This document shows, piece by piece, positions 1-20,125 of a stretch of DNA of 64,000 bases. The notes below the pieces were generated by a model, which was not told the DNA's origin, ran no database searches, and was given only the letters and a program-made list of their open reading frames with translations. The translations under genes were made by a program, and so were the position numbers. The DNA comes from Polytrichum commune (taxonomy: Eukaryota > Streptophyta > Polytrichopsida > Polytrichales > Polytrichaceae): positions 33,542,001-33,606,000 of the forward strand of contig OX485804.1 in assembly GCA_950295325.1 (NCBI GenBank). Reading direction: 5' to 3'. Each line of letters opens with the position of its first letter. Positions within the stretch are counted from its first letter, which is position 1.

Positions 1-690
1 ACCCTCCCAAATGAGCACAAGCACACTCCAAAGCGACGACACAAAGGCTCCAAAGCAAAGACACAAAGGCTCCAAAACCGAACACAAAAGCTTCAAAGCG
101 AATATATAGAAGCCTCAAACCCTAAGCCCTAAGCCTAAACCGGGAACCCATGATATTTTGAAATACCCCATGATGCCCTTGAGTAATCGGGGCACCATAT
201 GATGTATATGGTCTTAAAAATACATACCTCAACTGTATCCTAACACAAATCATTAGTTTTCTATCCCAACAGTTAGACCAGTAAGTTGCCTATACATAAT
301 TTTAAAAAATCCACACGAATATTTGCCTCCAATTAGAATTATAAGCCACGAATAGTTGCCTCCCATTAAAATTATAAGTCATTCACAATGTTAAAATTTT
401 ATTAAAAAGTCCAAAAAGTTGGGTAGTTTGACCTATGGTACATGTATTAAAAAAATATATAATTAGGTTTTTAATGCAATTATATGCTTCAAAATATATT
501 CATTTCCTATATATAATTACATTTTTGGATTCCTTGTTAGAAGGGCTACAAGGGTTTCCTACATTAAAACAAATTGTATCACTCAATATTGGACTAAAAC
601 GCATTATAAGTGATTATAATCAGGACCATATAATACGGGAGTTGCGTACCCGGGGTGTTGGCCTTTTGTATTTTATTTTTATTTAAAAAA
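1..690. other. AT-rich stretch without a recognisable gene
   Basis: No convincing coding region on either strand. Short CCCTAA-like words near 115-140 (CCCTAAGCCCTAAGCC) resemble degenerate telomeric units but do not form an array. The 83-codon open frame at 435-686 has low-complexity AT-driven composition and no recognisable motif. Confidence 0.5.
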
Positions 691-697
691 GAAACAC

Positions 698-1010
698 TCA
701 TTCCTTGTTGGATGCCTAAACCCCTGCCTCCAAGAAACCAATGTATGGGTTGGTTCGCCCCAGCTTGCAAGATGTGGGTGCAGAGAAGAAAAATGCCCAT
801 TTAAGTAAGGCCTCTTTGCAATTAGATTTGAGCGAACCAACCCATACATTGGTTCCTTGTTGGATGCCTAAATCCTTGCCTCCAAGGAACCAATGTATGG
901 GTTGGTTCGCCCCAACCTACAAGATGTGGGTGCAGAGAGGAAAAATGCCCATTTAAGCAAGGCCTCTTTGTAGCTGGATTTGGGCGAACCAATCTATACA
1001 CTCGCTGTGA
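698..1010. repeat. Two tandem ~155-bp units with internal inverted repeats
   Basis: The block from CCTTGTTGGATGCCTAAA to the next copy is present twice in a row (about 698-853 and 854-1010). Within each unit the word AACCAATGTATGGGTTGG (736 and 888) is mirrored about 100 bp later (832-854 perfect, 983-1004 degenerate), so each unit can fold into a hairpin. Further copies lie at 2528-2752. This looks like a small foldback or MITE-like repeat. No target duplication was identified. Confidence 0.7.
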
Positions 1011-2527
1011 GCCTAAACGTTGGACTCACATGTGTTTTAGGTACTAAACACTTATTAGATTAGCCTTGGGGATTTTATTCAAGTAATTAAAAGTGAAAAA
1101 AAAATGTTGTTGGTAGTATAGAATTGTGTTAAGATTAAGTTAGAATTAAGGTAGGATTTCAAGTTAAATAGGGGGTTGGGCTTTTGGTTTATTAAATCTG
1201 AAATTAGCTAGGGTGAAATGCGACAGTGGGCAAGGGGTCACAGGGGGGTTTAAGAGTTGGAAATGGTATCCTTGCTGCCCATTTAGGGGTATAACCAGGC
1301 GAGGGGATAAACCTCAACCTCAGCGGGAAATCCGGTAAGGTCCAGGGGTCTCGAACGAGGAAGACATCACCAACAAGGAGGAAGCTCTCTCTCGGCGGGT
1401 CGGCGAAGGCAACTGGAATGGCCTGGCTCAAAAAAACAGAGGATTCGGCGAAGGCAGCGGGAGCAAATGTGTGTGGTTGAAAGGTGAGAGGCTGGGGAAA
1501 AGGCTAATGAGGGGCTGGCGAGCTGGGATTCCCGAAGAGGGATCGGAACAACACCGAACCAAGAGAGGGATTCGGGATGGTGGCTGTAGACCGAAGAGTG
1601 GCAAGGAGGAATTCGAGATGGTCAGCTGCTAATCCAGAGGGCAATGCTGCCAAACACCGATCCAAGAGCCCACACAATGTCACTGATTTACTGAATCACA
1701 AAAGAGGAGGTGGATTCAAGACTGGGCACTTGCACTCACGAGCTGACTCAAGAATGCGGAGTCCAGGGATTGAGGATGGAATGTGAATTCAACAGGAGGG
1801 TAAATGGGTCAATGTCGGGGATTCAAGTGACGGAGTGTGGGTCTGGTGTTGTGGGCCGAACTAGGAGGGGAGCGGCATCCCGTATGAAGATCAGCTGAGC
1901 AGGGTTTGGTGATGGTTGGATAGACAGGGTGAGGCAGGCCGATTAAGACCTCAAGGAGATATGGGAGAGTCGGCTACCTAGGGAAAGGCTGGGGTTGCTG
2001 CAGATCGGCGAAGGAGGCTGCTGGACTCGCCTTCCAGCCGAGAGCCACATTGACGGGCGTTGACGGGCTGGCTGCCACCGATAACAACGTAGATTTATGG
2101 GCAGCCATGTGTGACTGAGGCTTGAGACCTGGGTGTTTACGGACCTGATGGGGACGGCACATGGGCTGGTTGGATCAACTAGAAGATTAGGTCAGGCTAA
2201 GTAGGATTTTAGAGACGATTAAGTGAGTGGCTTCCAAGGTAAGTGGTGGCTCTTGGCCATAACACTTAGCACTCATAGGTCAATTGCATTTCTAGGTTAA
2301 GCTTGATATGCATAGCCAACTAGTGGATTAGTTTGGAGGAGCATTTAGATTAGGAAAAGCATTTTTTAACACTTGTACCTGGTGTTATGAAATGAAAGTT
2401 ATTAGTTTGTGTGACATCCGGAACAATTACACACCTACTAGAGGGCCAGTGAATAGTGAGCAGTGAGTGTTAGCCATAGGCTCTCATCCGGACTACGACG
2501 CATAAGGGTGTGAGTTTGTGGCTGACA
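1011..2527. other. Non-coding stretch with a GC-richer island
   Basis: The interval 1200-2160 is clearly richer in G and C than its surroundings and reuses words such as CGGCGAAGG (near 1400, 1446 and 2006). All open frames are under 80 codons and show no motif I recognise. It could be a fragment of an LTR or another old element, but nothing proves that. Confidence 0.4.
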
Positions 2528-2752
2528 CTCGCTCCTTGTTGGATGCCTAAATCATGGCCTACAAGGAACCAATGTACAGGTTGGTTCACCCCAACTTACA
2601 AGACGTGGGTGCAGAGAGGAAAAATGCCCATTTAAGGCCTCTTTGAAGTTGGATTTGGGGAACCAATCCATACACTCGTTCTTTGTTGGATGCCTAAACC
2701 CTTGCCTGCAAGGAACTAGTGTACAACTTGGTTCGCCCCAGCCGATATGAAA
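2528..2752. repeat. Third and partial fourth copy of the 698-1010 repeat
   Basis: CTCCTTGTTGGATGCCTAAA recurs at 2531 and again, slightly changed, at about 2681. The shared CAAGACGTGGGTGCAGAGAG and AAAAATGCCCATTTAAG segments lie between them. The orientation is the same as in the 698-1010 copies, so a roughly 155-bp unit spread within this region before or after the GC-richer segment was inserted. Confidence 0.65.
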
Positions 2753-2767
2753 CATTTTATCAACTTA

Positions 2768-3345
2768 GGGGTGGTTTATACTATAGATCATGAAGTTGTC
2801 CAAAGCCCTATGAAAGTTGTGATTGGTTGTTGAACTCGTCTTGGGACCACTTCAATTTACACCAAGGAAAAAAATGTCAAAGTGATCATAGAGTTCGAGG
2901 TCCCCAAAAGACATATTGTAACACCTACATTATCCACTGGCATGGTCCAACAGGTTTTGCGGTGGGAAAGGCAAAATAGATGCTCTAATAGAAAAAGTCA
3001 AGGGCCCATGGCAGAGAAATGATCTTACAGTTTTCTTTAATGAAATTTTTCTTTCTTTCTTGGGAAGAAAAGACGAAGACAAGAGAAGACAAGAGAATGG
3101 TCATAATTTTAATTATTTATTTTCAAATTTTCAAATTTTTCCTTTTTGGACATATATTTAAAAAATTAACATAATCACTTTTTGGTGCATGGCCATATTT
3201 CTTGGTCCACATTCGGTTTACACCTAGTGAGGGGCCCAAAGGCTTTGTAAATTGCTTTTTCTAAGAAATTGAACCATCAAGTCGGACCATGGAAAAAGGT
3301 CATCTTCCATGGTCCAACTTCATGGTCCATGGTGTAAACCGGCCC
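2768..3345. mobile_element. PIF/Harbinger-like MITE (578 bp, TTA target duplication)
   Basis: The left end starts GGGGTGGTTTATACTATAG. The right end, read on the other strand, starts GGGCCGGTTTACACCATGG. The similarity continues through CATGAAGTTG for about 34 bp. The element is flanked by TTA at 2765-2767 and at 3346-3348. GGG...CCC termini with a TTA duplication are typical of PIF/Harbinger-derived Tourist-like MITEs. There is no coding capacity. A related, more diverged sequence lies at 45526-46487, and a lone left-end-like sequence at 4056. Confidence 0.8.
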
Positions 3346-3348
3346 TTA

Positions 3349-4745
3349 GCACAAGATGGTTGGCATAATCCAAATTGAGGTGGTAGTCGCTTTCCTCATG
3401 ACTTCTGGACCTCACAATTATCAAAGTGAAGATTCTCGTGTTCATTAAAGTGTCATCTAGGTCACTCCAATGATTTTGACACATTGCACTTAGAATGATT
3501 ATCATTTGAACACATGTTTTTTGGATATTTGTTATTGGAAATACACCTAATCACAAACCGTTCAACTAATAGAAGTAAGAGAATAAGGTAGTCTACCATA
3601 GTGGAGAGAGAGCATTATCACATACAAGCATCCCTCTCATCCATCCAATATTAAAACTTGACTTCATGTAGTTTTTGGCCGATTCGTCTCAAATGATTTG
3701 GATTACACTAATTTGAGGTCTTTAGGGCTAACTAAGGTGTCAAGTCAATTTAAAATAGTGATATCTAGGCTATGTACTATTTCATGGCTTTTTATGTTGG
3801 ATGAATAAAAGATAGGCTCATATGAAACCAATAAAATGGAGGGACAACCTAGAAGGTTCTTTGTTTTTCATTGAAATTATAATCAAATTTGATTTGCAGA
3901 GCATTGGGAGAGTCTTCTGAGTGTTGCATCTCGTGTCCATGATTTGCAACTTGAGATGACAATCTTCGTGAGTCACATTTGCTGACTAAATGAAACATTC
4001 AACCCAACAGTGGAAATCTTTTGTGAAGTTGGAAGTGCCACAATAGGGCCAAATTAGGGTGGTTTACACTAGGACCCACACACCAACACTATGAGAATGG
4101 ATGTGTGGTCATGCCACTTGAACCAAATCTATGGTGCATGCAACTAAATGGTCCCCCAACCACTTAAAAAATGGTACGTTGACATTGCTAAAATATTTAA
4201 AGTGGCATGAGGAACATGAGAGTTTTACATGTGCTTTCACTAACTAATGCTTAAATTGTATAATATCACATAACATTATTCAACTGCATGGTTGTGTTTC
4301 ATCCTCTATTTAACTGCCGACATGTGTCTCCGCTGTGCTACCTTCATGGGAAGTAACTTAGAAAATAAGATGAAATTGTTGCCGGTATGAATAATAAATA
4401 ATGTTGGTTATAAATAGTAAGAATATTGTAAATAGTGTTGGTTTTCTAGATTATAGTGCTACTATGAATAGTATTTTTGGTGAATATAATCAGGATAAAC
4501 AATGTTTCATGTGAATAGTGTTGGGATGGACCATGATTTTTGTGAATAATGTTGGGAGTATAACTCTGCCCAAATCTCCAAGTATCAACCTGAATGTAAG
4601 AATAATTTATGAATATTCTTACTTTGCTTGGGGCTTACATAAGTGTAATTGACATATTCCAGGGTCATGGAACCGATCCAGATGGTTGAATAATGTTAAG
4701 CAACAAAGCAAAGAAAAGAAAGCATGGAAAAAAGTAACGACCGCA
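3349..4745. other. No recognisable gene
   Basis: No supported open frame. At about 4056 a sequence beginning GGGTGGTTTACACTAGG after ATTA resembles the left end of the 2768-3345 MITE but has no matching right end. The stretch 4385-4560 repeats words like GAATAGTGTTGG imperfectly. Confidence 0.4.
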
Positions 4746-4749
4746 ACTG

Positions 4750-7025
4750 GGTACCGGCATGAATGTGAACCCGCCATCCTTATGTTGATCATGGTTGTCT
4801 ATGATGCAAACATATAGTGTTATGCCTCCTTTACTGGAGGTGGCTATGGTAGCAAAACAAATTATCCAATGTTATGGGGGAGGGAGGATGGGTGTTTGTT
4901 TGTTGTCTGGTTTTGTTTTGTTCAGGACTAAGTATGTGAGGTACTTGATGGCATTTTGGTGTATGCTTTCACGAGGGTTTTGATATTAGATTATGGGATA
5001 TTGAGTTTAGTGAGTTTTCTTATGAAGTGTTTGTGTATGGCTCCTCTTACCCCATGTGTGATGTTGATGAGGGGCTTTACTTTCCATCCATTGCTTTGTA
5101 TGGTGTTGATTAGTGGGACGTATTTGGTGTCTTTCATGTTCGAGGGCATGGTCAGGGAATCTATCGTGGCAATATGTCAATTGCGTTGTGTTTGGGGGGA
5201 GGGGAGTACTCATGTTTGGCTTTGGTTTGGGGCTCTTATTATGCATAGGATGTCAAGTCTTAGTTTTTCTTGGCATTGGCATGGTGTGGGTGCCCAAGTG
5301 CATGTAAATAGCCACTCCGGCATTGTTGACATGGGTGGCTTGTTGTCGAAGTTCCTTATGTTGAACCACGTGAATTTGTTAGTTTATAGTGTTTGGGCAA
5401 TGAGGTGCACCACTCTGTTGTGGCATGGTATTATGAGGCCTTTTATATATTGGTTCTCACATGTGGATAGGAAGTGGGGCCATGTGTTTTTGGCATTGTT
5501 AGGGCATAGGTGTAGTAGGGGTGAAGGGTGGGTGAAGGGTCAAAAGATGATTTTTCTATGGTTTCCCATGTATTGGGCGTATCAAAATTTTAGAATTTGC
5601 ATGATTTGGGCATCAGATATGCCCGTGGCCTTCTAGAAGTGATTGGAGAGTTTGTGATTTATTTGGTCATTTGATAGCCATTTGTCAACGTATGGGAATT
5701 TGTTTTTGGCTGAGAAAAATTCTTGTTTCCAATGCTCTATATTTATGAATGTATGGAGATTGTGGAGGCTCCATTACGTGTGGTGGTCATGCAACTTGCT
5801 AGCCAATAAGGGGCGGTGTGGGTGATGTGTATATGGGGTGTTGTGGGTTTGCCTTTGTGTGTTCCCTCGTCTACTAGCATGTCAGCTATTTTGTTTCCAA
5901 TTTTACCAATGTGGGCTCTTACTTTGTGTATGTGGATTTTGTGCAAGGTCCAATGAATTTGGTGTACATTCATTGCTATAAACAACTTGTTTGGGTGGTG
6001 GTGTTGAGAGAACAAGTATTTTATGTGATTATTAATGAAAATATATTATTGACATTGTTTGCGAATGTGTATGTGTCCAATTGGGTAATTTGTATGGTTT
6101 TTATGGAAATGAATATGGGTATTAAGTTACATTTGTAGGATGTTTTGATAGCATGGCAATTTTTTTGATACCTGGGTGTTGTTGTTGGGGTTGTATACCC
6201 TTGATCCCGCAATCTTGCTTTTTATTTGGCCGTTAGAGTTTTGGGTGGTGGGAATGAAGGATTTGTATGTGTATATGACATTGTTGTATGATGCGTCGTG
6301 AGGTATACCATTGGCTTAGCTATTGTCATTTGATTGCTTGTACCGCCCATTTGTTTGTTCCGGTGGTGGGTTTTGGTGTCAATTATGGTATGGATTTTTA
6401 TGTTTAGGGTGAGGCAGAGTGGGATGTTCCGGGTGTGCATGTTGTTTGGTGTTGTGGGGATTGTGGGAGGGGTGGTATGGGTGGAGGGAGAGGGAATAAT
6501 GAATGGGTTTGCCGGAGGGCATCTTTGATGGTTTTGGGTGCGTGTTAGTATTTGGTGCAAAATTCTTCAAGGCTTAGTATAGCTTTGTTTTGGATTTGTG
6601 GTAGTGTTGTGATGCCGTACATGTATAGCTTGTTGAGGTATTGTTGGCATTTGGCCATTATGTTTCTCCCAAGGTTGGTGTATGCTGGGTTGGACCACCA
6701 TTTTTGTTCAAGGGGGTGCCTTTATGGGGAGTGAGAAGTTTGCAGTGGTGGTGTAGATTTCATACTCCCTTTCTACTAGGAAAAATGTTTAGGTTGTGGG
6801 GAATATGTTGCAAGCTTGTTGTTTGAGTTTGGGGAGGTGGAGTGAGCCCTCTGAATTTGGCAAAAATGTATTTGATGAGACCTTGGTAGATGGTGCCTAG
6901 TTTCCTGCTATCAACAAAGCATAATTTTTTTGTAGAGGTTTCAACAAGTGTTAGTATCATCTTGAAATGAGCACATGCCATAATAGAGGAGGTTCTCACC
7001 ACCAAACCTACCTTCAAAAACAATT
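4750..7025 (-). mobile_element. Degraded LINE-type retrotransposon with RNase H segment
   Basis: Minus-strand reading frames are broken, but around 5740-6015 they contain a clear RNase H-like stretch (HKVRAHIGKIGNKIADMLVD), matching the conserved C-terminal region KVxAHxGxxGNxxAD of retrotransposon RNase H domains. Upstream on the same strand (6020-7025) are fragments of similar composition but no clear reverse transcriptase motif. The plus strand is strikingly G/T-rich across 4790-6840, so the sense strand would be A/C-rich, as often seen in LINEs. Plus-strand open frames here, including one of 226 codons at 4956-5636, are antisense artefacts. The ends are not defined. The call rests on the RNase H motif and strand composition. 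Confidence 0.6.
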
Positions 7026-7149
7026 ACATCTCCCTTAAATCTTGTTATTTTTCCATGACAACGTTTTTTTTTTTTTTTGGTGAAGCTTCTCATGGTGTTT
7101 CCATAAACACCAAGATTGCCTCTTAATTCTTAGCCATTTGGGGGAGAGT
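7026..7149. other. Flank of the MULE
   Basis: Short spacer with a run of 15 or more T near 7065, next to the left end of the large transposon. G-rich words just outside the inverted end (GGGGAGAGT) have a weak counterpart at the right end (GGGAGGGA on the other strand), so the true element boundary could lie a few bases further out. Confidence 0.4.
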
Positions 7150-7196
7150 GCTATCTTATGAGCGGTGAGCGATGAGCGGTAACTTATGAGCAGTGA
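7150..7196 (+). repeat. Left terminal inverted repeat of the MULE
   Basis: It begins GCTATCTTATGAGCGGTGAG and continues with GAGCGATGAGCGGTAAC and TGAGCAGTGAGG. The first 15 bp match the right end exactly, and the rest matches as a degenerate series of TGAGC words. Confidence 0.8.
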
Positions 7197-10100
7197 GGAA
7201 GATGAAAATTTCGGTAATAGGGCCACCAATATCCTATAACCGTGGAATTGTGGCCTTACAAATGATGATTTTAGGGTTTAGTAATAAGAGGGTTGAGAAG
7301 GATAAACAACATGAAGTCCAAAAATTTATTCATCAGTAGTAGCACTAGACATGAAACTATCTTTTGCCTCGTCATCTATATATATTCGAGCACCTTTGCA
7401 TTGCGAATTGATTTTGGAACTATAGCAAGATTCTTCATTTGGATCCGAATCTTTGAGATTCAACATTGCAATTGCAACATTCTCGGCATATGATGGGAGA
7501 CGCGGGCTACGGCTTGGACTTCGTAGGAATTGTCTATGTGCCCAAAACGGGAGACATGTCCTCTTTCCAATCGTATTCCTGAAATCAAATCGATGAAACA
7601 TGTAAATAATGTGAAGAAATAAAAATGAACCAATGAATTGAATGAATTGAATGAAACGAATGAATTGAATAAAAATTTATTGTATTAAAACTTACTCACA
7701 CTCAAATTCAAGCATCTCCTCATCTGAGAGGTTATCATCTTTTTTTGTGAGATCTTGTATATTCTCCTTAGATGACCCCTCTTTCAAAACGTTTTCTAAA
7801 AGCGGTTTCAATATGTGCTCAAACATGTCATTATCACCCTCAAAAGCAAGAAGATGTCTGCCACATGCGCGTGTTGCTAGGATAGAAGCTCTAGTGGAAC
7901 ATGTCAAATCAACAACGCGTCCATTCGATGGTGTAAACAATTCAATAAGATCTTGAAAAAAAACGCGGCGATTTTTGATATGGCCCCCTCCAAGGTCTTC
8001 CCGATTTTTGAAGAAGCATGTTTTTTTCATCCACAAAATTGAAAAGCAAGTTTTTGCTTTTCAATCCAATGCCAAAAAAAATGGAGTTTGGTTGTCTCGT
8101 GGATTTTGTGGTAGTAAAATCCCTTACCAAGACATGAGCCATAAATGCCGGAGTCTACAAAAAAATGTAAATTGTGTTAAAACTATATACAATGCAAATA
8201 ACACCAAAATAATTAAATATAAACAATTGTGATGTGTTATACTTACGGTGTAGGTTGGAGACTCCGGATCCTTGAACACCATGTACGAATTGAGGCAAAT
8301 AAAAGTCCTAAGAACTTTCATGTTGCCGTTGTCTAAGGTTGAATTCAAAACCTTCTTGGTTTGCACATCGATAGCAGAAAATACTATGAGGATGCCATCA
8401 TCAGACAAGATGGACTTGCACAAGGACATTGTTGCAACCATCCAGTTCTTGTCATATTTATTCCAAAGAGGAATTTCAGCAGGTCTATTGGAGAGGTTGA
8501 AATCAAGACCGTCGGGAAATTGCAGAAAAACCAAGTCAACGGCAAAGGGAGTCGGATTTCCCATGACATGAAATTCGGGATTGTCATTGAACTGAAATAC
8601 CACAACATATCACAATATAAGACACAAAATAAAATCCAAATGAAAGTAAGAACATTAGAGAAAATACCAAAACAATAATACTTATGTTTTCAAGAAATTT
8701 CCGCCATTGGATCCACTCAGGAGGGCCTACATCCACCCCTTCAGACTTGTTCTTGACAGCAATAGATCGAGCAAACGAGAGCGTGAGAAAGTTCTTCAGT
8801 ATGAATAACTATTTTCTCAAAATATCCGTTGGCACACGATGAATAGCGTCATAGGTGTTGGAGTAATGGAATTCCAATACATCGCACCCAGACTTTGAAC
8901 TTTCGTCTCCAAGTGGATTCTTATCCAAATCATTGGAAAGAACAAGCAATTCTTCATGTTGTGAAATTTCCGATTGACCTTGTATTTTGGTTTCAGGAAC
9001 ATGTTTCTTCTTACTACGTTTTGTTTCTTTTGGTTCTGGCTCTCTAAGTTTAAGCTGCACAATTTGTGCTTGCAAAATTGCAGTATCACGAGGATCCATA
9101 TTTTTAGCATCATTTATCTGACGGATTGTCTTCTCACTTGATGGACATGCATCCTTAGGACAATCAAGATACCAACCACAATCCTCATAGTGTGGGAGCG
9201 ACCAATCCAAACAAATATCAGTAGTGAACATGCATGAATCTCCTGCACCAGTGTCACGCCAATTTGGAAAAAAACGAGGTTCCCCTATAACGCATTTATG
9301 TGGAATCAAAACATATTGAAAATACCTACACACAAAAATATTGTAAGTCAAATATTCCATGACAATTTGACAAATGGAATAAAAAAAATCAAAAAAATAA
9401 CAAGATTAGGTTGTACCTGTATAATACACGTTTCATAGCAAGATCAATATTAGGTTGCTCATCCCAACCGTTTTGTTTTTTAACTTTTCCGCTTTGGAAT
9501 TTACGATAGAATATTGAATTGAAAGCGCAAACTTCCAGGTTTGGATATACTTGGAGAGAGTAGGCACATCTGCAGGCAACTGAAGAGGAGATGAAAGAAC
9601 ATTTTGAAGCTCTTCGATAGCCTTTTTTTCCAACTGTGCCCAATATGTAGACTTTGATAACCAATCATCAAGTGCAGAATCAGAGAGGGGCGATTTCGGG
9701 AAATGCAATGCATCTTTGTCAAATCTATTGCCATTCCAAAGCTTGAGCCATCCAACTTTGACTTCTGCATCCACATTACTGACAGCAACACGATGAAGTT
9801 TCTCTTGTAGCATTTCAGGCACCGAAAATGAACCCCAATGGTGCTTAACTTCTTCAAGAAAAGCAGAGGTAAGGTTGATATCGGCAATCGCTAGTTGTTT
9901 CGTAAAACTAGAAGATAACATTGCACGTTTTTTGTTGACAGCTGCGGACATTGCTTTTGAAACTCCGTCTGATGTCCGTTCAAGAGGATGAATTTCATTG
10001 TACTGGTTGAGAGCAATATCGCTAGCCTCAGTAAGTTCTTGCTGAAAAATCAAACAAAAGTCAATATTTATAAGTTCATATAGGTGTAATGTAAAATGAA

Positions 10101-11441
10101 AATCAATAAACATAAGGCACATATTAGCAATGGTAGAAGAACTTACATTGTACATGTAATCCAAAAAAATTGGTCGTGTCAAAGAATACCAAGTTTCGAC
10201 AGACTTCTCCTCACATCCTTTATAATTCTTTGGATTCAGTTGCTTTCTGGAGGAAGTCAAAGGCATGGTGCCAATATTTTGCATCCGATATAAAGTATGC
10301 ACCAAATTGGTGGATACGTGAGAATTTTCGGTTGACCTGAAAAAAATATTAAATTGATTAGATTCATGATGATATAATTTGGAAAACAAAATATAAACTA
10401 GAAATACGTGTAAAAAAATAGGTAAGAATATTACTTGTTGATGTCATGCATAGCAGTCAACAAACTTGGAATGTAGTCAGGCTCGGACGCCAAAATGATA
10501 TAATCCACAAAGACATGACATTCATAATCTTCGGTATATACGCGGTCAATATAATTTTTCCAAGCAAAAAATCTGTGATTTCCATCCCATATAAAAAACA
10601 TCTTGTTCTTGTATGACGTCAATGACAAATCTGTATCCAATTGAGATTCAAACAGGGCATTGGCTTGAGCCCAATTTGGGCTCCAAAATGCGCGAACCTT
10701 ATCATCCACGAATTGAAAGTTTCCCTTAGAATCTGTGGCCGTTATATAAAACACACGGTTACCATTACGATAACCATTGAAAAAATCAGCCTCCAATTTA
10801 GTAATGTCACCCTTCAAAGCAGGACGAACAATCAGCATAGGAACCATGCGACATAAGGGTACACGCAAGCGAGCATTAAGTCTAGTACGGATTGAGGAAA
10901 TTGTGGAAGTGAAATTGACCTTTCGTTTGTTTGTAAGCTCCCACACTTTTTTTTGATAAGTTTTATTGTCATCATCATTATCTTCATCCAAGTCAAAATC
11001 ATCGAGGAATTCATTTTTAAATTTTATTTTTCTTATTATGAAGATTTGACGATATGTCCTGATGATGATGAACTTGTTGAGATGGACGATCTTGAGTTGA
11101 ATGCATTGTGGAATCATCATCAGTAGAAATAGGAGTCGTTCTTTCCAAATCCATTGATTGGTCCTAAAACAAATGAAATAAGTTTCATAAATATTTCAAA
11201 ACAAGTAGCAACACATTAGCAATAACATTATAAAAATAACAGCAATAGCAACAACAATAACAACAAAATACCACGAACATAGGGAAGAATGACAAAAATT
11301 ATTCTAAACACTGCCATTTGCATCTTTAAATATTGTACGATTAGGGTGGCCGCTCACCCCAAAAATTACAAGGCCAGACCCTGTGCGTTAACGTAGAGGG
11401 TCTGTGCGTCCAACTACAGGTCTACCAAAGTTGGACGCGAG

Positions 11442-11559
11442 GTTTGGGTCGAACGACCCAAACTAGGCAAACAGTTTGGATCGACCGATCCAAACTAGGC
11501 ACACAGTTTGGGTCGAACGACCCAAACCATGCAAACAGTTTGGATCGAACGACCCAAAC
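11442..11559. repeat. Array of four 22-bp palindromes at 32-bp spacing
   Basis: Palindromes start at 11442, 11474, 11506 and 11538, an exact 32-bp period (22-bp palindrome plus 10-bp spacer). The half-site is GTTTGGGTCGA followed by its mirror image. Copy 2 is a compensated variant (GTTTGGATCGA half-site), keeping the symmetry. The same motif and the same period recur in the transposase intron at 16062-16179. Confidence 0.9.
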
Positions 11560-11773
11560 TGTCCGCAATTTACGCCTGATTACGCGCAATTACCTAGTCA
11601 TCACAAAAGTGCAAACAAACCTTGTACTGCACCTGTAGATGAGAGAGCTTGCAGCGATGAGCTCAGGTTCGACGGAGGAGAGAAAAAAGACTGAATGCTT
11701 TGGGGGTGTGGCAATTTATACTACTCGTCCCTGCAGCCATATTTAGCGTGGCTCTTCGTGGCCCCGCATAGCC

Positions 11774-11904
11774 GCTAGAAAGTCGCCAGCGTAGACCCTG
11801 TGCGTTAATGCACAGGGTCTACTTGCCCAACTTTGCGAAGCCTCTAGCTAGGCAAGTAGACCCTGTGCGTTAACGCACAGGGTCTGCGCTGGCAACTTTC
11901 TAGC
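11774..11904. repeat. Near-perfect 54-bp inverted repeat
   Basis: Arm 11774-11827 is mirrored by arm 11851-11904 with about three mismatches, separated by 23 bp. Each arm contains a complete CCCTGTGCGTT-type palindrome (11796-11817 and 11861-11882), so palindromes are nested inside a larger palindrome. On one strand this could form a long stem or a cruciform. Confidence 0.85.
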
Positions 11905-12011
11905 CACTATGCGTTAGCGCATACACCCTGTGCGTCAGCGCATAAGGCCTATGCGTTAGCACATACACCCTGTGCGTTAGCGCATAGACCCTGTGCGTTA
12001 ACGCACAGGGC
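11905..12011. repeat. Compact cluster of short GCGTTAGCGC palindromes
   Basis: Repeated words TATGCGTTAGCGCATA and CACCCTGTGCGTT follow each other every 20-25 bp and end in a full CCCTGTGCGTT palindrome just before 12011. These are diverged members of the family seen at 11380, 11796, 11861 and 12445 onward. Confidence 0.75.
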
Positions 12012-12401
12012 CGAGACATGAATTTGAAAAAAACTTGTAAAATCTGGAAAAAATGCTAATGGGGTCGAAAAAAAAAAAATGCTATATTATCTAAATATCC
12101 GTAGCTACAAATTCTTCTTATATTTTTTTTTGGTTTGAAATGATTTTCTTTTCTCATTCTTCTATCTATTTCCTTGTTTTGGGCCACATCGTAGATTTTG
12201 GGTTTCGGGGCAAAAAAAAAATTATGCTATTTTGTGTCATTTTCTAGCTCCTATAACGTATTGCATGAATACTTGAGTAGTCATATTTCTCATTTCTTGC
12301 ATTCTAACCCCGTTTTCAATAGTTTTTTTAGTCCTACGTTCTGAACATCGATTTGAATTCATACAATAGATATTTGTTTTAGTTTTAGGCTCTTCTAGTC
12401 G

Positions 12402-12905
12402 TTTTACCTCCCAACTTTTGGCCTCCCTTAATTGCTCTTACAAACCCTGTGCGTTAATGCACAGGGTTTTACCTCCCAACTTTGGGCTTCCTAAGTTGCG
12501 CTTACAAACCATGTGCGTTAACGCACAAGGTTTCTCCTCCCAACTTTGGCCTTCCTAAGTTGCGCTTATAAACCCTGTGCGTGAACGCACAGGGTTTCTC
12601 CTCCCAACTTTGGCCTTCCTATGTTGCTCTTACAAACCCTGTGCGTCAACGCATAAGGTTTCGTGTCCCAACTTTTTGCTTCCTAAGTTGCTCTTCTAAA
12701 CTCTGTGCGTTAACGTACAGGGTTTCACCTCCCAACTTCTCGCCTCCTAAGTTGCTCTTATAAAGCCTGTGGGTTCTCCTCCTGACTTCTAGCCTTCCTA
12801 AATTTCTGTTATATACCATGTGCATTAACGTATAGGGTTTCTCCTTTCCAATTTAAAACTTCTATAAATTGCTACTACATGACATGTGAGTGAACTTACA
12901 AGGTT
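12402..12905. repeat. 64-bp tandem repeat, each unit carrying a palindrome
   Basis: Palindromes of the CCCTGTGCGTT type start at 12445, 12509, 12573, 12637 and 12701, exactly 64 bp apart, followed by decayed copies at about 12765, 12816 and 12882. The linker between them is a conserved pyrimidine-rich sequence (CTCCCAACTTTGGCCTTCC). Decay increases toward the accessory gene's exon 1 end. All lie inside intron 1 of that gene. Confidence 0.85.
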
Positions 12906-13247
12906 CTCCGTGCTAACTTACAACTTATGCACTATCAAATTATGTGAACGTTGAACTGACTTACCTTTTTGTTTGTCGTCTTCTTTGAACCCGTCTTGAA
13001 TTCGGACTCTGATATACGATCGTTTATATCTTCTATGTTCTTTGCACCTTCATCATCCTCCATCGCATCAAAATCCAGTGTCTTCACAGTTTCTTCTACC
13101 GTACTCAACAAGTTTCTTTTCCCTTCCTTATTTGCATCATTCTTTCCCACACTGAGTCTGAACCTCTTTTTTCTCGGAACTGAAATACAAAGATTTCCTA
13201 CGTCTTCTCTTCGGCCTCACGGGTGTTCTCTCTACATCGTCCACCAT

Positions 13248-13769
13248 CGTTGGTGTCTATGATATGTTTTCTATCAGGTACTATCATTTATTCTTCGAAT
13301 GTATCTATCTCACAAAATCTGGCGTATATTACGATCACATGTTGTAATTGGCGTTCAATGAACGAGATATTTCGACGCGTTTGTCATTATGTGTTTATTT
13401 TTGTTATATCTGCCAAAATTTTCTGACACCTACTTTGTTCTATTCATAATGATCAATAATTTATTTTTCCAACCAATTTTAATTCTTTCTACATCTACGT
13501 CAGTCCACACATATATATTTTAAATTTCTACCAATACTTTTAGTATTTGATGTCATTTTGTGTATATCTTGCTCGTAAATATTTTCTGACTATTATTGTG
13601 TTATGTCTACTTCTGTATTATTAGATGCTTTGTATCACACCCTTTCATCTCCATCCATTATTGTATCACACGTTTTCATTTCCATTCATTTTCTCACACA
13701 ACTCTATACAAAAGCAACATTCACCCCATATTTTTGTGATGTGTTGTTCATATGTTCTTTTGATTTTCT
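13248..13769. promoter_or_regulatory. Putative divergent promoter region of the MULE
   Basis: This 520-bp AT-rich interval separates the proposed start codons of the accessory gene (minus strand, 13247) and the transposase gene (plus strand, 13770). No open frame of substance lies in it. That both genes are transcribed outward from here is inferred from their layout. I cannot point to a proven TATA box or start site. Confidence 0.45.
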
Positions 13770-15937
13770 ATGGCTATCATTAGAGCTCATGGATCTTTTG
13801 TTCCCTTCATCTTGTCACTCCAAAATGATGGTCATGTGAGTGTTTCAGAGGATTTACTTAGTTTGAGATTCAACCTCCAGATAGGAACCATGTATTTAAA
13901 GCATGAGATGTACTCTGCAGATGGAGAGGTGTATGAAACGATTTTGGTTCCAAAAAATAGAACTGATGTTGGTTTTATGTGGATCTTAGGACCTAGTTCA
14001 TTTAGGGTGATAGGACTTTATGAGTCTCAGATGTAAGCTTTAACAGTCATTTTAACAAACGAATCTGGTACATCCACAGTTCAAATTCCTTCTATCACAC
14101 CTGTTAAGGTGGAACCCCTTGATGATAGTGTGTTTGTGCTATCAGATTCAAAAGATGACATTTGTACATCTGTGGATCTTTCATACACATCGCCATTTCC
14201 ATTTAGAAGTGTTCATTCTACTCCTTTCCAACTTCCTATACATGTAGCCAAATCCCCTTGCGGTCTTATGTACAAGAAGATGGTTCCCAAAATCTCACCT
14301 TCTCAACGTCCTCCACTACACCCTTCACCTTCATCTACAGGGTTGACTATGGTTGATGCCTTGAAGCTGACAAAGTCAAGAAAAAAATCAAAGTCCGATC
14401 TTGCATCCATTGATTTTGACAGTATAGATGTTCGTGAAGTCAAGTACTTACCATCTTCTTGTAATGGTGATGTTTTGTTTCTCTTGCCTCCTGTGGCGCT
14501 CAAAGCTCCAAGTACGTATGGTCGCTCAATGGCCGGCATGGACAAAATGTGCGACGGTCACCCTTGGTGCACCACCAAAACTACAAATATCCAAAATGAC
14601 TTTGGACTGTCCTTCCGGCGCTGTACTTGTGCTGGTCATCTCCAATGTCATAATGACTACTGTGATTACATGAATCGCAATGGGGGCCTCCGGAACAACA
14701 CTGAATGGGCCGGTTCAACTCCTATCCCATTTGTTGTGGGTGTTGTTCCTCCTACTAAGTCCATTGTCGAGTGTAAGGTATGTCGTTCCACACGTGTGTG
14801 CATTGCTTTGTGTAATGCTCGAATCATATACATCCACTCCACATCCGTTGGAATGTCCAGGGCTTGCATTCATCTTGGTGTACATGATCACCCTGTGGCC
14901 AATGGCACATGCCGTGAATTATTGGACATGGTATACCAATGCGTTGCAAATGAAGTATTGAAAACACCCACAACAAAAATTTCGGCCATAGTTATGGCGG
15001 CGAGCAAACAATTCTTGGCCGATTACCTTCTCAAATCTCCCGCAAATGTCGAAGGCCATCACTTGGTTGGTTCATCCTTAGAGGTCGTCATGGACAAATT
15101 CAGCACTTTTGCGTCTCCAAATTATCGTAACTTTGTATCTGGATCAAAGCGTTTTTTGGCGTAGTGGAATGGGAACTATGGATAGTATTATGGCGCTCAA
15201 AGAGCACTCTGCTTTCAAATTCGTCCATGGTAGTCGGTTCCTAGGGCAGTCAAAGGACAAAGTGCTTGTTTTTAAGATGTCTGTAGACCTTCCAGGTAGT
15301 GGTGTGGAGCTTGTGAAGAGGATGCAAGTCGGTGGGGATATGGAGAATTCATGGATTATGTTTGACCATGTCAAACGTTTGAAGGACTGGACGACCATGG
15401 CTTGCCATGTGTACGACAGTCGATACTGTAAAGTGTTGACTATTGCGTGTTGTGACATGCAATCTGAAGATGGTGCAGCACAAATTCTTTTTTGGAAAAA
15501 TTTGAATGTTGTCATGGCAGAAAATGGTGTACGAAACGTAAACTTCAAAGGGTTTATGGCTGATAGTGCTCAAGCTAATTGGAATGCGGTGAGGGCAATT
15601 TACGGGGATGGTAATCCAAATCTACCCATGGTTGCACGTGAGCGTACATGTCTTTTCCATTGGTCCGCAAGCTTGGATAAGGTGACCCAAAAGTATATCA
15701 AACCATCATTGCAATTTCAACACAAACAAATATGCAAGGATTACAAAGACGCGAAAACAATGGACGACGCTGAGACCAAGTACCATGTGATTCGTTCTTA
15801 GTGGTTGTCATCTGGAGCTGCCTCCGAAGAAGGCATCCTTGGTCTTTCAAAGTGGTTGGGATTTTGGCACTTTCGTTACAGACAATGGGGTGGCCATATG
15901 CTACTTGTAAGTACATATCAAACTTCATTATTCAATG

Positions 15938-16302
15938 TAATATATCTTATGTTTTTCTTATCTTTGTCTTTCTGTGTTGTTCATAGGATATGACAATAAA
16001 AGAGTGTGTAGGAATGCCAACATGCAACCTTGCAGAGACTGTACACAACAAACAACAAACAGTTTGGGTCGTTCGACCCAAACCTTGTATGCAGTTTGAG
16101 TCGAACGACCCACACCTTGTAGGCAGTTTGGATCGTTCGACCCAAACGTGGCAGTCATTTTGGGTCAAACGACCTAAACCTAGATATATAATCTATCTTA
16201 TATTTGTCTTATCCTTATATTTGTATGTTGTTCATAGGATATGACAATAGAAGAGCGTGCGGAAATGCCAACATGCAACCTTGCAGAGACTGTACACAAC
16301 AA
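15938..16302 (+). repeat. Duplicated splice-acceptor region flanking a palindrome array
   Basis: The intron end and exon start of the transposase occur twice: around 15938-16048 and 16187-16300 (shared GTTGTTCATAGGATATGACA and GCCAACATGCAACCTTGCAG). Between them sits the four-palindrome array. The upstream acceptor (ending at 15986) would enter a frame that stays open through the array until 16244. The downstream acceptor (ending at 16237) joins the proper exon. The insertion point follows the codons for VHNK. Confidence 0.8.
16062..16179. repeat. Second array of four 22-bp palindromes at 32-bp spacing
   Basis: Palindromes start at 16062, 16094, 16126 and 16158, an exact 32-bp period, with the GTTTGGGTCG half-site and its mirror image. 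The motif, copy number and period are the same as at 11442-11559, but it lies in the intron of the other gene. Copy 4 is the most decayed. Confidence 0.9.
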
Positions 16303-17824
16303 ATGGCTCCAACAGTCCGGCAACAAAAATGACTTGTTTATATGAAGCTACAGTGGACGACATGATCCGTGCCTTCATGCAAATTGTAAATTACCGGACA
16401 TGGTTGAAAGGGGGGTCTGATAGTAAAGGTCCTGATTCGGCCTCCTTAAAACTCAAAGCAGCTGGCAAGTGTGGAGATCCAAAAATGTTGGCCGATGCCA
16501 TGAAGTCTTATCTAGGGCCAGAAGACGTCAACACAAGAGATTGTGCATTGGAAGGGTCAGAGCTCTTTGGTTCTACTAAACGCAAACTCAACCTACCACC
16601 GGGTGCTGATTGTGACTCTCATCGACCCGACAAAGTGGACTATTCCATTCCTTGTCCCAACACCCGAGCAACTCGTCAACGCATAGAAGAATCGTTGAGT
16701 TCTGCAATTCGTGGTGTGGCTCATACTACATCCGTGTTAGAGACAAATTGTCTTGCTTCCAAGTGGCACATTGCAAGATTACCACCCAACTCAGCCAAAC
16801 GATGTTGGGCACTGCAGGCCATCACAGGGACTATGTGCAATGCCAAAGTCGGGACTGGGAAACATGGCACACCTGCCCCAACATATAAAGGGCTCAGGAA
16901 GGAATTTCGCTCTCCCAACAATGTGGAGTATGAATTTTGGTTTTGTCCTGACGACATCAAACGTTGTGTGAGTGGCAGTAAGAAGAAATATGTGTTGGAC
17001 TGGCCTATAGTACCCAACATGTGGCCAATGAAGATAGGTACCAATTTATCGAGAGAGGAGGTTTTGGCACTTGAAGATGCTGGATTTCAACTACAGCAGA
17101 GGGAGGCATTGTCTCCTCGTCGTAGGCTTTCAACAATCGCAACTCTTCCCATCCATCGCTCGTATTTTTCTATGCCACCAAACCCAGACACCCACCCTAC
17201 ATTCAGATTTGGGAAGACAGTACGTCGTAATCCAACAGCACCTCTAGTGGATCACAAAAACAAATGGGAGAGCGCCGGACTCATGGAAGGTTACTATGTG
17301 GTTGGGGTCACTGCCATTCCATATCCGGGCTTTGGAGTGATAATCAACATTTTCTCCAAGCAGGATATCACCTACCATATCACAATTGGCGATATCCCGC
17401 ATTGCACATGTCCAGATTTCACGAAAATGTCCTCTCATGCATTGGGAAAGAAAGGAAAATGGGTGTATTGTAAACATCTTTATTATGTGTTTAGATTTTT
17501 GTGCAAGGTGGATTATGAGAGTGACAAGTTCATTCATGCACCTACATATACCTATAATGAGGTCATGCGACTCCTTGAACTTGCTGGTATTGTAGAATGT
17601 GAGTAGTATTGCAAGTGTTTTATTAAGTAACATATATTTGAATGTCAATAAATGACATGTTTTGGTTTGGATTATTATAATAAAAATTAGCAGTGGACTG
17701 AAAGTATTTCAAATGATTCAGTAACTTCATTTTTATTTAGACTGCGACCCAACCATGTGTGGTTTGATTGATTCACACGGATAAATAATAACACGTTTCT
17801 TAAAATAAAAAATAATTAGGAATA

Positions 17825-18000
17825 TTCTACGCACATCCGCGTAGTAACGTCTTCTTGGTATCCGCCTATAGATTATTTCTGCTTTATCACTAGCTCAATT
17901 TGGGATAGCACCAGTCAATGTAACCAACCGGATTCGAACCCGGATTGATCCAGACCTAATACCAGTCTCTTATACAACTCGCATCCACAGGCGGATGTCT
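17825..18000 (-). mobile_element. tRNA-derived SINE-like insertion
   Basis: On the minus strand a pol III B box GGTTCGAATCC (17940-17930) follows an A-box-like region around GTTGTATAAGAGACTGG (near 17975), the arrangement of plant tRNA-derived SINEs. ACATCCGC words appear at both edges. It sits between the transposase 3' end and a second copy of that 3' end. Secondary structure is not tRNA-like enough for a functional tRNA gene. Confidence 0.5.
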
Positions 18001-18116
18001 CAAAACCTAGTAGCTACCTACATATTCATTATTTCTAATATCTAATTTTCTTTCTTTTGTAGATTCTGGGCCTTTATTCAACCTTTGGGCAGTTTGAGTG
18101 GCTCACAATTATGGCA

Positions 18117-18300
18117 CCGACATATATGTATAATGCGGTTATGCACCTACTTGAATTTGCTGGTGTTGTAGAATGTGAGTAGTTGTACAAGTGCTAGTTG
18201 TAGCTATATGTATAAGGATGTCAATAAATGACAAGTATTGGTTTGAATTATTATAATAAAAATCAGCAATGGATTGAAAGTGTTCTAAATGATTTATGGA
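18117..18300 (+). repeat. Second, diverged copy of the transposase 3' end
   Basis: This segment repeats 17545-17722: the last roughly 20 codons (ending GTTGTAGAATGTGAGTAG) plus the 3' flank GATGTCAATAAATGACA and ATTATTATAATAAAAAT. Divergence is moderate and the reading frame upstream is missing. It indicates a tandem duplication or recombination between two MULE copies at the right end. Confidence 0.8.
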
Positions 18301-18424
18301 AATAGGGCCCTTTCACTTGTGCTTCATTTAAAATATTGGCAATTTACAATTGAAAATATGCAATTAATTTGTCAAAATTTTGGTTGTAAACCCTAAACCC
18401 GTGTGTCTTTACTAAATTTGGATT

Positions 18425-18505
18425 CATTGCTCATATGTTACTGCTCATTGCTCATGTGTTACTGCTCACCACTCACCGCTCACTGTTCATCGCTCATAAG
18501 ATAGC
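18425..18505 (-). repeat. Right terminal inverted repeat of the MULE
   Basis: Read on the minus strand it starts GCTATCTTATGAGCG at 18505 and continues with GATGAACAGTGAGCGGTGAG and further TGAGCA words. It is longer and more repetitive than the left end, with extra ATGAGCAATGAGCAGTAAC units. Confidence 0.8.
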
Positions 18506-18539
18506 TTCCCTCCCACCAAGGTCAACCCCCAAGACCATT

Positions 18540-19094: not shown

Positions 19095-19440
19095 GTTAAT
19101 AATATATATATATATATATGTATAATATGTATATAATATATGTAACATATAATATATATATGTATGTATATATGTATATATATGTCTGTATATATGTATG
19201 TATATGTATGTATGTATGTATGTATATGTATGTATATATATATATATATATAATATATGTAACATATATGTATATAATATATGTAACATATATGTATATA
19301 ATATATGTAACATATATGTATATAATATATGTAACATATATGTAACATATATGTATATAATATATGTAACATATATGTATACAATATATGTAACATGTAT
19401 GTATATAATATATAAATATATAAATATGTATACATTTACA
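19095..19440. repeat. TA-rich microsatellite and 22-bp satellite
   Basis: Runs of TATATATG and TATGTATG pass into a roughly 22-bp unit, GTAACATATATGTATATAAT, repeated about six times between 19258 and 19395. Open frames across this block are repeat artefacts. Confidence 0.85.
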
Positions 19441-19480
19441 GTAAATATATAAATATGTATACATTTACAGTAAATATATA

Positions 19481-20125
19481 CAGTATATATTTACTGTAAT
19501 TATATACAGTATATATTTACTGTAATTATATACAGTATATATTTACTGTAATTATATACAGTATATATTTACTGTAATTATATACAGTATATATTTACTG
19601 TAATTATATACAGTATATATTTACTGTAATTATATACAGTATATATTTACTGTAATTATATACAGTATATATTTACTGTAATTATATACAGTATATATTT
19701 ACTGTAATTATATACAGTATATATTTACTGTAATTATATACAGTATATATTTACTGTAATTATATACAGTATATATTTACTGTAATTATATACAGTATAT
19801 ATTTACTGTAATTATATACAGTATATATTTACTGTAATTATATACTGTATATATACTGTAATTATTTACTGTAATTATATACTGTATATATTTACTGTAA
19901 TTATATACTGTATATATTTACTGTAATTATATACTGTATATATTTACTGTAATTATATACTGTATATATTTACTGTAATTATATACTGTATATAATTACT
20001 GTAATTATATACTGTATATATTTACTGTAATTATATACTGTATATATTTACTGTAATTATATACTGTATATATTTACTGTAATTATATACTGTAATTATA
20101 TACTGTATATATTTACTGTAAATAT
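19481..20125. repeat. 26-bp minisatellite in two variants
   Basis: Units of exactly 26 bp start at 19481, 19507, 19533 and so on. The first 14 (to 19844) have CAGTATATATTTACTGTAAT. From 19845 to about 20110 nearly all units have CTG in place of CAG. In the CAG form TACAGTA pairs with TACTGTA within the unit. In the CTG form the same words become direct repeats. Confidence 0.92.

Follow-up and report, generated by a model that had tools for sequence, protein, structure and literature searches.

A Mutator-Like Transposon of Polytrichum commune with a ParB-Like and Methyltransferase-Like Accessory Gene and Near-Palindrome Arrays

Genes that combine a ParB-like domain with a methyltransferase have been described in algal transposons. 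The element Sola1-1_Ec32 of Ectocarpus carries a 1104-amino-acid (aa) gene of this type, with an N4/N6 methyltransferase, on the strand opposite to its transposase, and comparable transposon genes have been reported from green and red algae (Iyer 2011; Petroll 2025; both as cited in the accessible part of PMC12477816). A different accessory protein, VANC, is known from the VANDAL elements of Arabidopsis, and the motifs that it targets are arranged as tandem repeats, both within introns and upstream, and differ from one related element to another (PMC5735166, accessible part). The subject of the present work is a two-gene DNA transposon found in a 64,000-nucleotide stretch of the Polytrichum commune genome (assembly GCA_950295325.1, contig OX485804.1, here C2, 33542001-33606000), hereafter the window, in which it occupies positions 7142-18512. 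In this genome each of the two halves of the NAC model gave 14 matches, hence ~14 NAC genes, against none in 14 controls, all of them prokaryotes; NAC genes belong to plants and their closest algal relatives, and the count fits a land plant host.

Compared by description with the accessible part of PMC12477816, the element resembles Sola1-1_Ec32 in having a ParB-like and methyltransferase gene opposite the transposase strand, whereas Sola1-1_Ec32 belongs to the Sola superfamily and to a brown alga and the present element has 9-bp target site duplications (TSDs) and a plant host. Three features found here go beyond the same description: a degenerate motif IV, arrays of palindromes, and a single transposase backbone combined with unlike accessory halves. 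Likewise by description (PMC5735166, same part), VANDAL and VANC are similar in having an accessory gene and element-specific tandem repeats of short motifs, both intronic and upstream; the motifs here are palindromes, however, and the protein is ParB/methyltransferase-like. Methyltransferase profile similarity also extends to prokaryotic and phage DNA methyltransferases and ParB-methylases (phrog_67, phrog_3008; Bce_0392), from which the accessory gene differs in its long linker, its introns and its lack of DPPY. A prediction made earlier from the sequence letters alone (hereafter the original prediction) had held that plant transposons of the Mutator-like element (MULE) group carry accessory genes of other types, a view superseded by PMC12477816 as far as its accessible part goes. 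The kind of gene is already known from algal transposons. Searches of open-access papers turned up no earlier case with a plant host, and none of the degenerate motif, of the palindrome arrays or of an exchanged accessory half; neither ParB nor methyltransferase is mentioned, by term look-up, in the accessible parts of PMC6446971 and PMC13317346.

The reading preferred here, which is tentative and falls only a little short of probable, is that the element is an exchangeable-cassette transposon, whose cassette combines a ParB-like and degenerate amino-methyltransferase protein with a palindrome array of its own and would serve self-recognition or anti-silencing.

Element structure and unlike accessory halves

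The ends of the element were defined by alignment between copies; an inverted-repeat scan was swamped by AT-rich satellite. Directly outside the element (window ~19100-20000) the sequence is AT-rich and satellite-like and contains long inverted repeats. Both ends were found in six of seven copies, the window copy counted, the left end of the seventh (c5p) not having been found. A perfect 9-bp TSD flanks three copies (AAGTTCTAG, GTGTAGGCA and GAGGTTGCG) and a fourth has one of 9 or 10 bp (ATCGAAGTT(A)), in agreement with the 8-11 bp expected of MULEs. No TSD of its own was detected for the window copy, nor for an inverted copy ~40 kb away (C2:33499900-33512463). Since each of these two has the other's outer flank (GCCATTTGG, CCACCAAGG), they have probably recombined, inverting the DNA between them. 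The interval 7326-13247, given as the element in the original prediction, is thus too small, as the element also includes the plus-strand transposase; the accessory gene does lie inside the same ends as the transposase, as had been claimed, and many genome copies hold both genes. In the 408 Mb searched, the accessory probe yielded 141 candidates at first look and the transposase probe 258, and 40 candidates per probe were then scored. Among the 40 accessory matches with scores, 14 (window included) have the two probes 5.1-5.7 kb apart in constant order and orientation, which indicates that their pairing is not due to chance.

The transposase frames in the window are interrupted by stops. Motifs of the type D, D, C..H, E and CxC..CKH were read by eye, and a SWIM score of 0.077, below the cut-off, was obtained with pieces from family D, one of the families introduced below. 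The Pfam MULE model was unmatched at E≤1 by a 1028-aa open reading frame (ORF) of the stretch L021, and at E≤10 by the window piece and two family D pieces. The MULE label of the original prediction therefore holds as "Mutator-like", from the TSD length, the ends and the DDE/SWIM-like layout, with the Pfam model unmatched.

Matches to the methyltransferase profile PF01555 number 83 genome-wide at E≤1. From nine of these places and four further stretches, four families (B, C, D and E) were distinguished besides that of the window (A). Families A, B, C and D have transposase and accessory gene in head-to-head arrangement; in L021 an E-like methyltransferase piece and a transposase share one strand. 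The methyltransferase parts of the five families are 28-50% alike, and the accessory lineage is, to judge from its sequences, old and diverse.

In three of these families a common transposase is combined with accessory halves that are unlike each other. Among A, B and D, transposase identity is 90-92% over ~207 aa, while accessory identity is 41-46% in the ParB part and 28-34% in the methyltransferase. The family D methyltransferase is closest to those of C (50%) and E (44%), whereas its transposase is 57% identical to that of C and closest to A and B. For B as well as for D, two copies were compared. In 400-bp windows, the A element was set against B2 and D2. Between element positions 401 and 6800, a single 40-bp piece is in common with B2, and two windows of a widespread 32-bp repeat plus a 92-bp piece at 72% with D2; from 6801 onward all windows match at 77-97%, some of them partly. 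One boundary of similarity lies at the accessory stop (7326), the left end being common with B over 184 bp (to ~7312) and with D over 84 bp. The other lies directly upstream of the transposase start (~13722-13767), where B and D share ~230-270 bp more. Because the three families have one transposase but unlike accessory proteins, with almost no DNA similarity there, we infer that the accessory half was exchanged between related elements. Fast divergence of the accessory half instead of exchange seems less likely, as it would have to account for introns with almost no DNA similarity next to adjoining DNA that is 77-97% alike.

Near-palindrome arrays of the families

Near-palindromes were counted with 10-bp arms, at most one mismatch, a spacer of 0-3 and G+C of at least 40%. 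There are 14 in the window element, 22 in the stretch of copy c1m, nine in D, 13 in E (9.9 kb) and one each in B and C, eight shuffles of each giving 0-3; B2 has 10, D2 has 11 and a longer E stretch 23. As controls, four random 7-kb stretches hold one each, window positions 18600-64000 hold six and positions 1-7100 none, with no array in any of them. Four of the five families have an array of their own, placed in accessory introns or in the spacer upstream (Table 1 for family A). The cores (TGTGCGTTAACGCACA in A, TGTGCGCTGGCGCACA in B, GTTTCGGTACCGAAAC in D and GTCTCGGTCCCGAGAC in E) all bear CG-N4-CG about the dyad, as read by eye.

When array patterns were searched with up to three mismatches, the A pattern was found in all seven A elements (9-12 sites each), the B pattern in two of three B stretches (the third, L013, stops short of the expected sites), the D pattern in both D copies and the E pattern at 25 sites in the single long E copy. 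Each pattern is absent from the other families, and all four are absent from C, from the accessory relative L040, from 28 kb of random stretches and from 45 kb elsewhere in the window. Genome-wide, the exact A site occurs 490 times and its reversed control not once. In the first 21 Mb of C1, each of the 11 listed clusters of the A site is co-located with the element: an A accessory match lies beside three of them and an A transposase match beside two, and the remaining six carry A accessory exons. The exact B site lies 6-7 kb upstream of a B methyltransferase match, on the same strand, at 8/8 loci, and the exact D site lies within 7 kb of a D accessory match at eight of 16 loci, all in the expected order. 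By these patterns the arrays appear to follow the accessory gene and not the transposase; a view of the arrays as part of the transposase was rejected, because the arrays differ among A, B and D although these have the transposase in common. A further palindrome, GTTTGGGTCGNNCGACCCAAAC, was dropped as a cognate site of the element because it is non-specific, with 9,231 sites genome-wide; among the sites listed, many belong to tandem arrays, whose periods are of several lengths. The original prediction had noted neither the near-palindrome arrays nor the exchange of the accessory half.

Table 1. Features of the family A element in the window (positions in the window).
Feature	Position	Strand	Remarks
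Whole element, family A	7142..18512		Ends GGGGGAGTGCTATCTTATGAGC (most copies) / GAGGGAAGCTATCTTATGAGC reversed; six-copy alignment; TSDs in four other copies
Left end with subterminal TGAGC repeats	7142..7312		Common to family B: 85% over 184 bp of copy c1m
Accessory exon 8 and stop	7326..7578	-	Stop at 7326
Accessory exon 7, motif-I half of methyltransferase-like domain	7696..8154	-	Length off by one base
Accessory exon 6, methyltransferase-like	8247..8591	-	QFPDG at motif-IV position
Accessory exon 5	8686..9325	-	Donor ATAAGT in window copy, GTAAGT in intact copy
Accessory exon 4	9417..10041	-	Length off by one base
Accessory exon 3	10147..10336	-	
Accessory exon 2, ParB-like domain	10435..11163	-	DGNHR at 10586-10572; length off by one base
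32-bp tandem repeat with GTTTGGGTCGNNCGACCCAAAC	11442..11560		Not specific to element
Near-palindromes CCCTGTGCGTTAACGCACAGGG	11796..12010		Accessory intron 1
64-bp tandem repeat, units with palindrome CCCTGTGCGTTAACGCACAGGG	12401..12771		Accessory intron 1
Accessory exon 1	12965..13247	-	Length off by one base compared with intact copy
Transposase gene, broken in window copy	13770..17606 (end approximate)	+	Backbone common to families A, B and D
Second array of 32-bp repeat	16060..16147		Between transposase reading frames, probably intron
Right end with subterminal repeats	18424..18512		

The accessory gene and its protein

The spliced minus-strand gene of eight exons put forward in the original prediction was confirmed, with GT-AG ends in all seven introns of two intact copies. 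The window gene is a pseudogene, with one-base changes in exons 1, 2, 4 and 7 and a lost exon-5 donor. Of the six further copies fetched first, c1m and c5p are open through all eight exons (1173 aa), and the remaining four are broken by stops, by frameshifts or by loss of a donor. The ratio of nonsynonymous to synonymous substitution (dN/dS) of the whole gene against c1m is 0.14-0.57 in six comparisons, and two family B comparisons gave 0.52 and 0.26. As pseudogene copies are among those compared, evidence that the gene is under constraint is moderate at best. In family B, an ORF with protein-kinase similarity (L018:1-804, Pkinase 9.2e-9) lies upstream of the accessory gene on the same strand and perhaps belongs to the B cassette; an ORF resembling it by eye is present in L017:1-1074, also of family B.

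In the N-terminal part, the DGNHR motif was found exactly where it had been placed. A DG-x-HR-type motif is a feature of the ParB/Srx superfamily. DGNHR is invariant in five rows (A, B, C, E and L040), which also keep PLCRM, VR and DGNHR..AW, and D107-R111, A114 and W115 are invariant in both alignments; family D differs, with ICRL and GEGNHR read in a broken frame. Identity of this part between families is 41-48%. The accessory proteins gave no match to Pfam ParB. DUF1015, which we take to be related to ParB, was matched at best at 0.0069, in two of four members (repeat pieces gave 0.15 or nothing), and the phrog ParB-like family (phrog_1033) at best at 0.1, in two of five. A phrog head-protein family (0.017) and an unknown family (0.01) match as well or better, in one member each. 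No ParB was among the PDB sequence matches, and AlphaFold models from one and two sequences, with predicted local distance difference test (pLDDT) values of 42 and 45, were unusable. The label "ParB-like" is accepted because the same pairing with a methyltransferase has been reported in the Ectocarpus element. The predicted ParB-methylase identity thus stands for the methyltransferase ancestry and the DGNHR motif, ParB itself being supported at the level of the motif.

The C-terminal part is, on profile evidence, related to the beta-class N6/N4 amino-methyltransferases. The predicted domain order holds, with the motif-IV-like VDLVFLQFPDGL in exon 6 followed by GRVVDLTCSTRAS..GRHLLAFEGD in exon 7. 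All five members match PF01555 at E≤1, the best relative being a family B member (2.4e-9, 37.9 bits against a cut-off of 26.7); the family A domain alone reaches 21.8 bits, under that cut-off, and 7.6e-8 on phrog_67. A five-member profile matched DpnA at 1.4e-9 (motif-I half only) and CcrM at 7.4e-5 (positions 11-210, nearly the whole domain) in the PDB. Residues invariant among the five members include D4, P11, G13, PWRG, K168, D189, T194, G195, R206, H207, E212 and D214.

Catalysis in beta-class amino-methyltransferases is carried out by the motif [DNS]PP[YFW]. The corresponding site was read by alignment at 21 places from 42 records, which are copies of few families and not independent cases, and the variants found are DIPDG, DLPEG, DQPEG, DVPED, EIPNG, QFPDG, QFSDG and, once, DIPYG. 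The catalytic form DPP[YFW] occurs at none of the 21 places, the aromatic residue is absent from 20 (the exception being DIPYG in one family B copy), and the Asp is absent from all seven family A copies and from L016. Since DPPY is degenerate at every place read, methylation by the accessory protein appears doubtful, and the methylase reading of the original prediction, sound as to ancestry, is weakened. It is accordingly unlikely, even with its clear fold ancestry and a motif I that retains D..xTG and an acidic residue after strand 2, that the protein is an active N6-adenine/N4-cytosine methyltransferase which binds and methylates its own transposon, the self-binding and self-modification proposed for algal relatives (PMC12477816, accessible part).

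Searches for relatives of the gene were also performed. Viral scans by tblastn found none. Against phages, a family B methyltransferase piece gave 14 weak tblastn matches (E 0.1-0.9), all on features annotated as methyltransferase or methylase, and the ParB part of C a single match (E 5) in an unannotated record. A genome-contig scan with one pattern returned 20 stretches, among them two relatives, L040 and L041, on short contigs of the bin uncultured Synechococcales cyanobacterium AVDCRST_MAG81. Their gene is in intron-split-like pieces, with motif IV reading DVPED and the ParB part seen in L040 only. A bacterial donor identity was rejected on account of these intron-like pieces and short contigs, the DNA being probably mis-binned and eukaryotic. 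With few patterns scanned, no prokaryotic donor and no close phage or bacterial relative was found; together with the old and diverse lineage and the algal transposon relatives, this leaves unsupported, in the form given, the earlier view that the element captured a prokaryotic module which gained introns later. Of the 83 PF01555 (N6_N4_Mtase) matches, three strong ones (98.5, 68 and 55.4 bits) fall on C10 and C12, two small contigs of the assembly that may be of bacterial origin.

Possible role of the accessory cassette

As proposed here, the accessory half would be a cassette composed of a divergently transcribed ParB-like/degenerate-methyltransferase gene and a near-palindrome array particular to that cassette. 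The accessory protein would putatively bind its own array and mark the element as self, and the most likely role of this marking would be to keep the element active against host silencing, as VANC does for VANDAL. The methyltransferase fold may serve DNA or S-adenosylmethionine binding, not standard amino-methylation, at least in family A. Self-recognition and anti-silencing are favoured because the layout matches that of the VANC target motifs (PMC5735166, accessible part). A broader idea, which we consider possible and hold quite tentatively, is that plant transposons may use swappable specificity cassettes, partition-like protein-palindrome modules on one transposase backbone that would protect only their own family.

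Several observations weigh against this proposal. Eight of the 16 D-site loci have no D match among the matches listed, the exact B site is missing at three of 11 B-type PF01555 matches, and 33 of 41 D accessory matches have no exact D site nearby. The family C cassette has no array, nor do L015 and L021, shorter stretches with E-like methyltransferase pieces, and no transposase was found in the 7 kb upstream stretch of family E. Across array units the palindrome is no more conserved than the spacer, a weak comparison in which the anchor lay in the spacer and the D rows were misaligned, and the palindromes could ride along inside an exchanged segment. For the ParB part alone, dN/dS is 0.26-0.80 in five comparisons (a sixth is undefined), which denotes weak constraint, and its identity as ParB seems to hold at motif level only. 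The site-specific part of bacterial ParB is, moreover, a helix-turn-helix and not the DGNHR-type domain.

Some of the same points bear on the view that the arrays are unrelated to the protein, being tandem repeats that grow in introns or spacers and are moved along with a swapped segment. The absence of an array from C, the lack of observed core conservation and the widespread GTTTGGGTCGNNCGACCCAAAC would all fit this view, which we nevertheless judge to be unlikely, given that four cassettes of unlike sequence each have ~20-bp near-palindromes with CG-N4-CG about the dyad and that the controls hold single near-palindromes and no array. That the protein assists transposition, perhaps as a ParB-type nicking nuclease (PMC5512222, accessible part, cites such an activity for the ParB domain of Bacillus cereus Bce_0392) or as a MuDR-like integration factor (other MULEs carry additional ORFs; PMC6446971, accessible part), is improbable, as very different accessory proteins on a single transposase backbone are unexpected of a close protein partner.

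The plant case described here joins the ParB-methyltransferase transposon genes known from algae. It provides a natural experiment with one transposase, three accessory proteins and three palindromes, by which the role of the accessory proteins becomes directly testable through protein-site swaps. If the cassette proposal is true, it would represent a second solution, by another kind of protein, to escaping silencing while the host is spared, and through the palindromes a further set of DNA-binding proteins, new to this use, would become available as tools.

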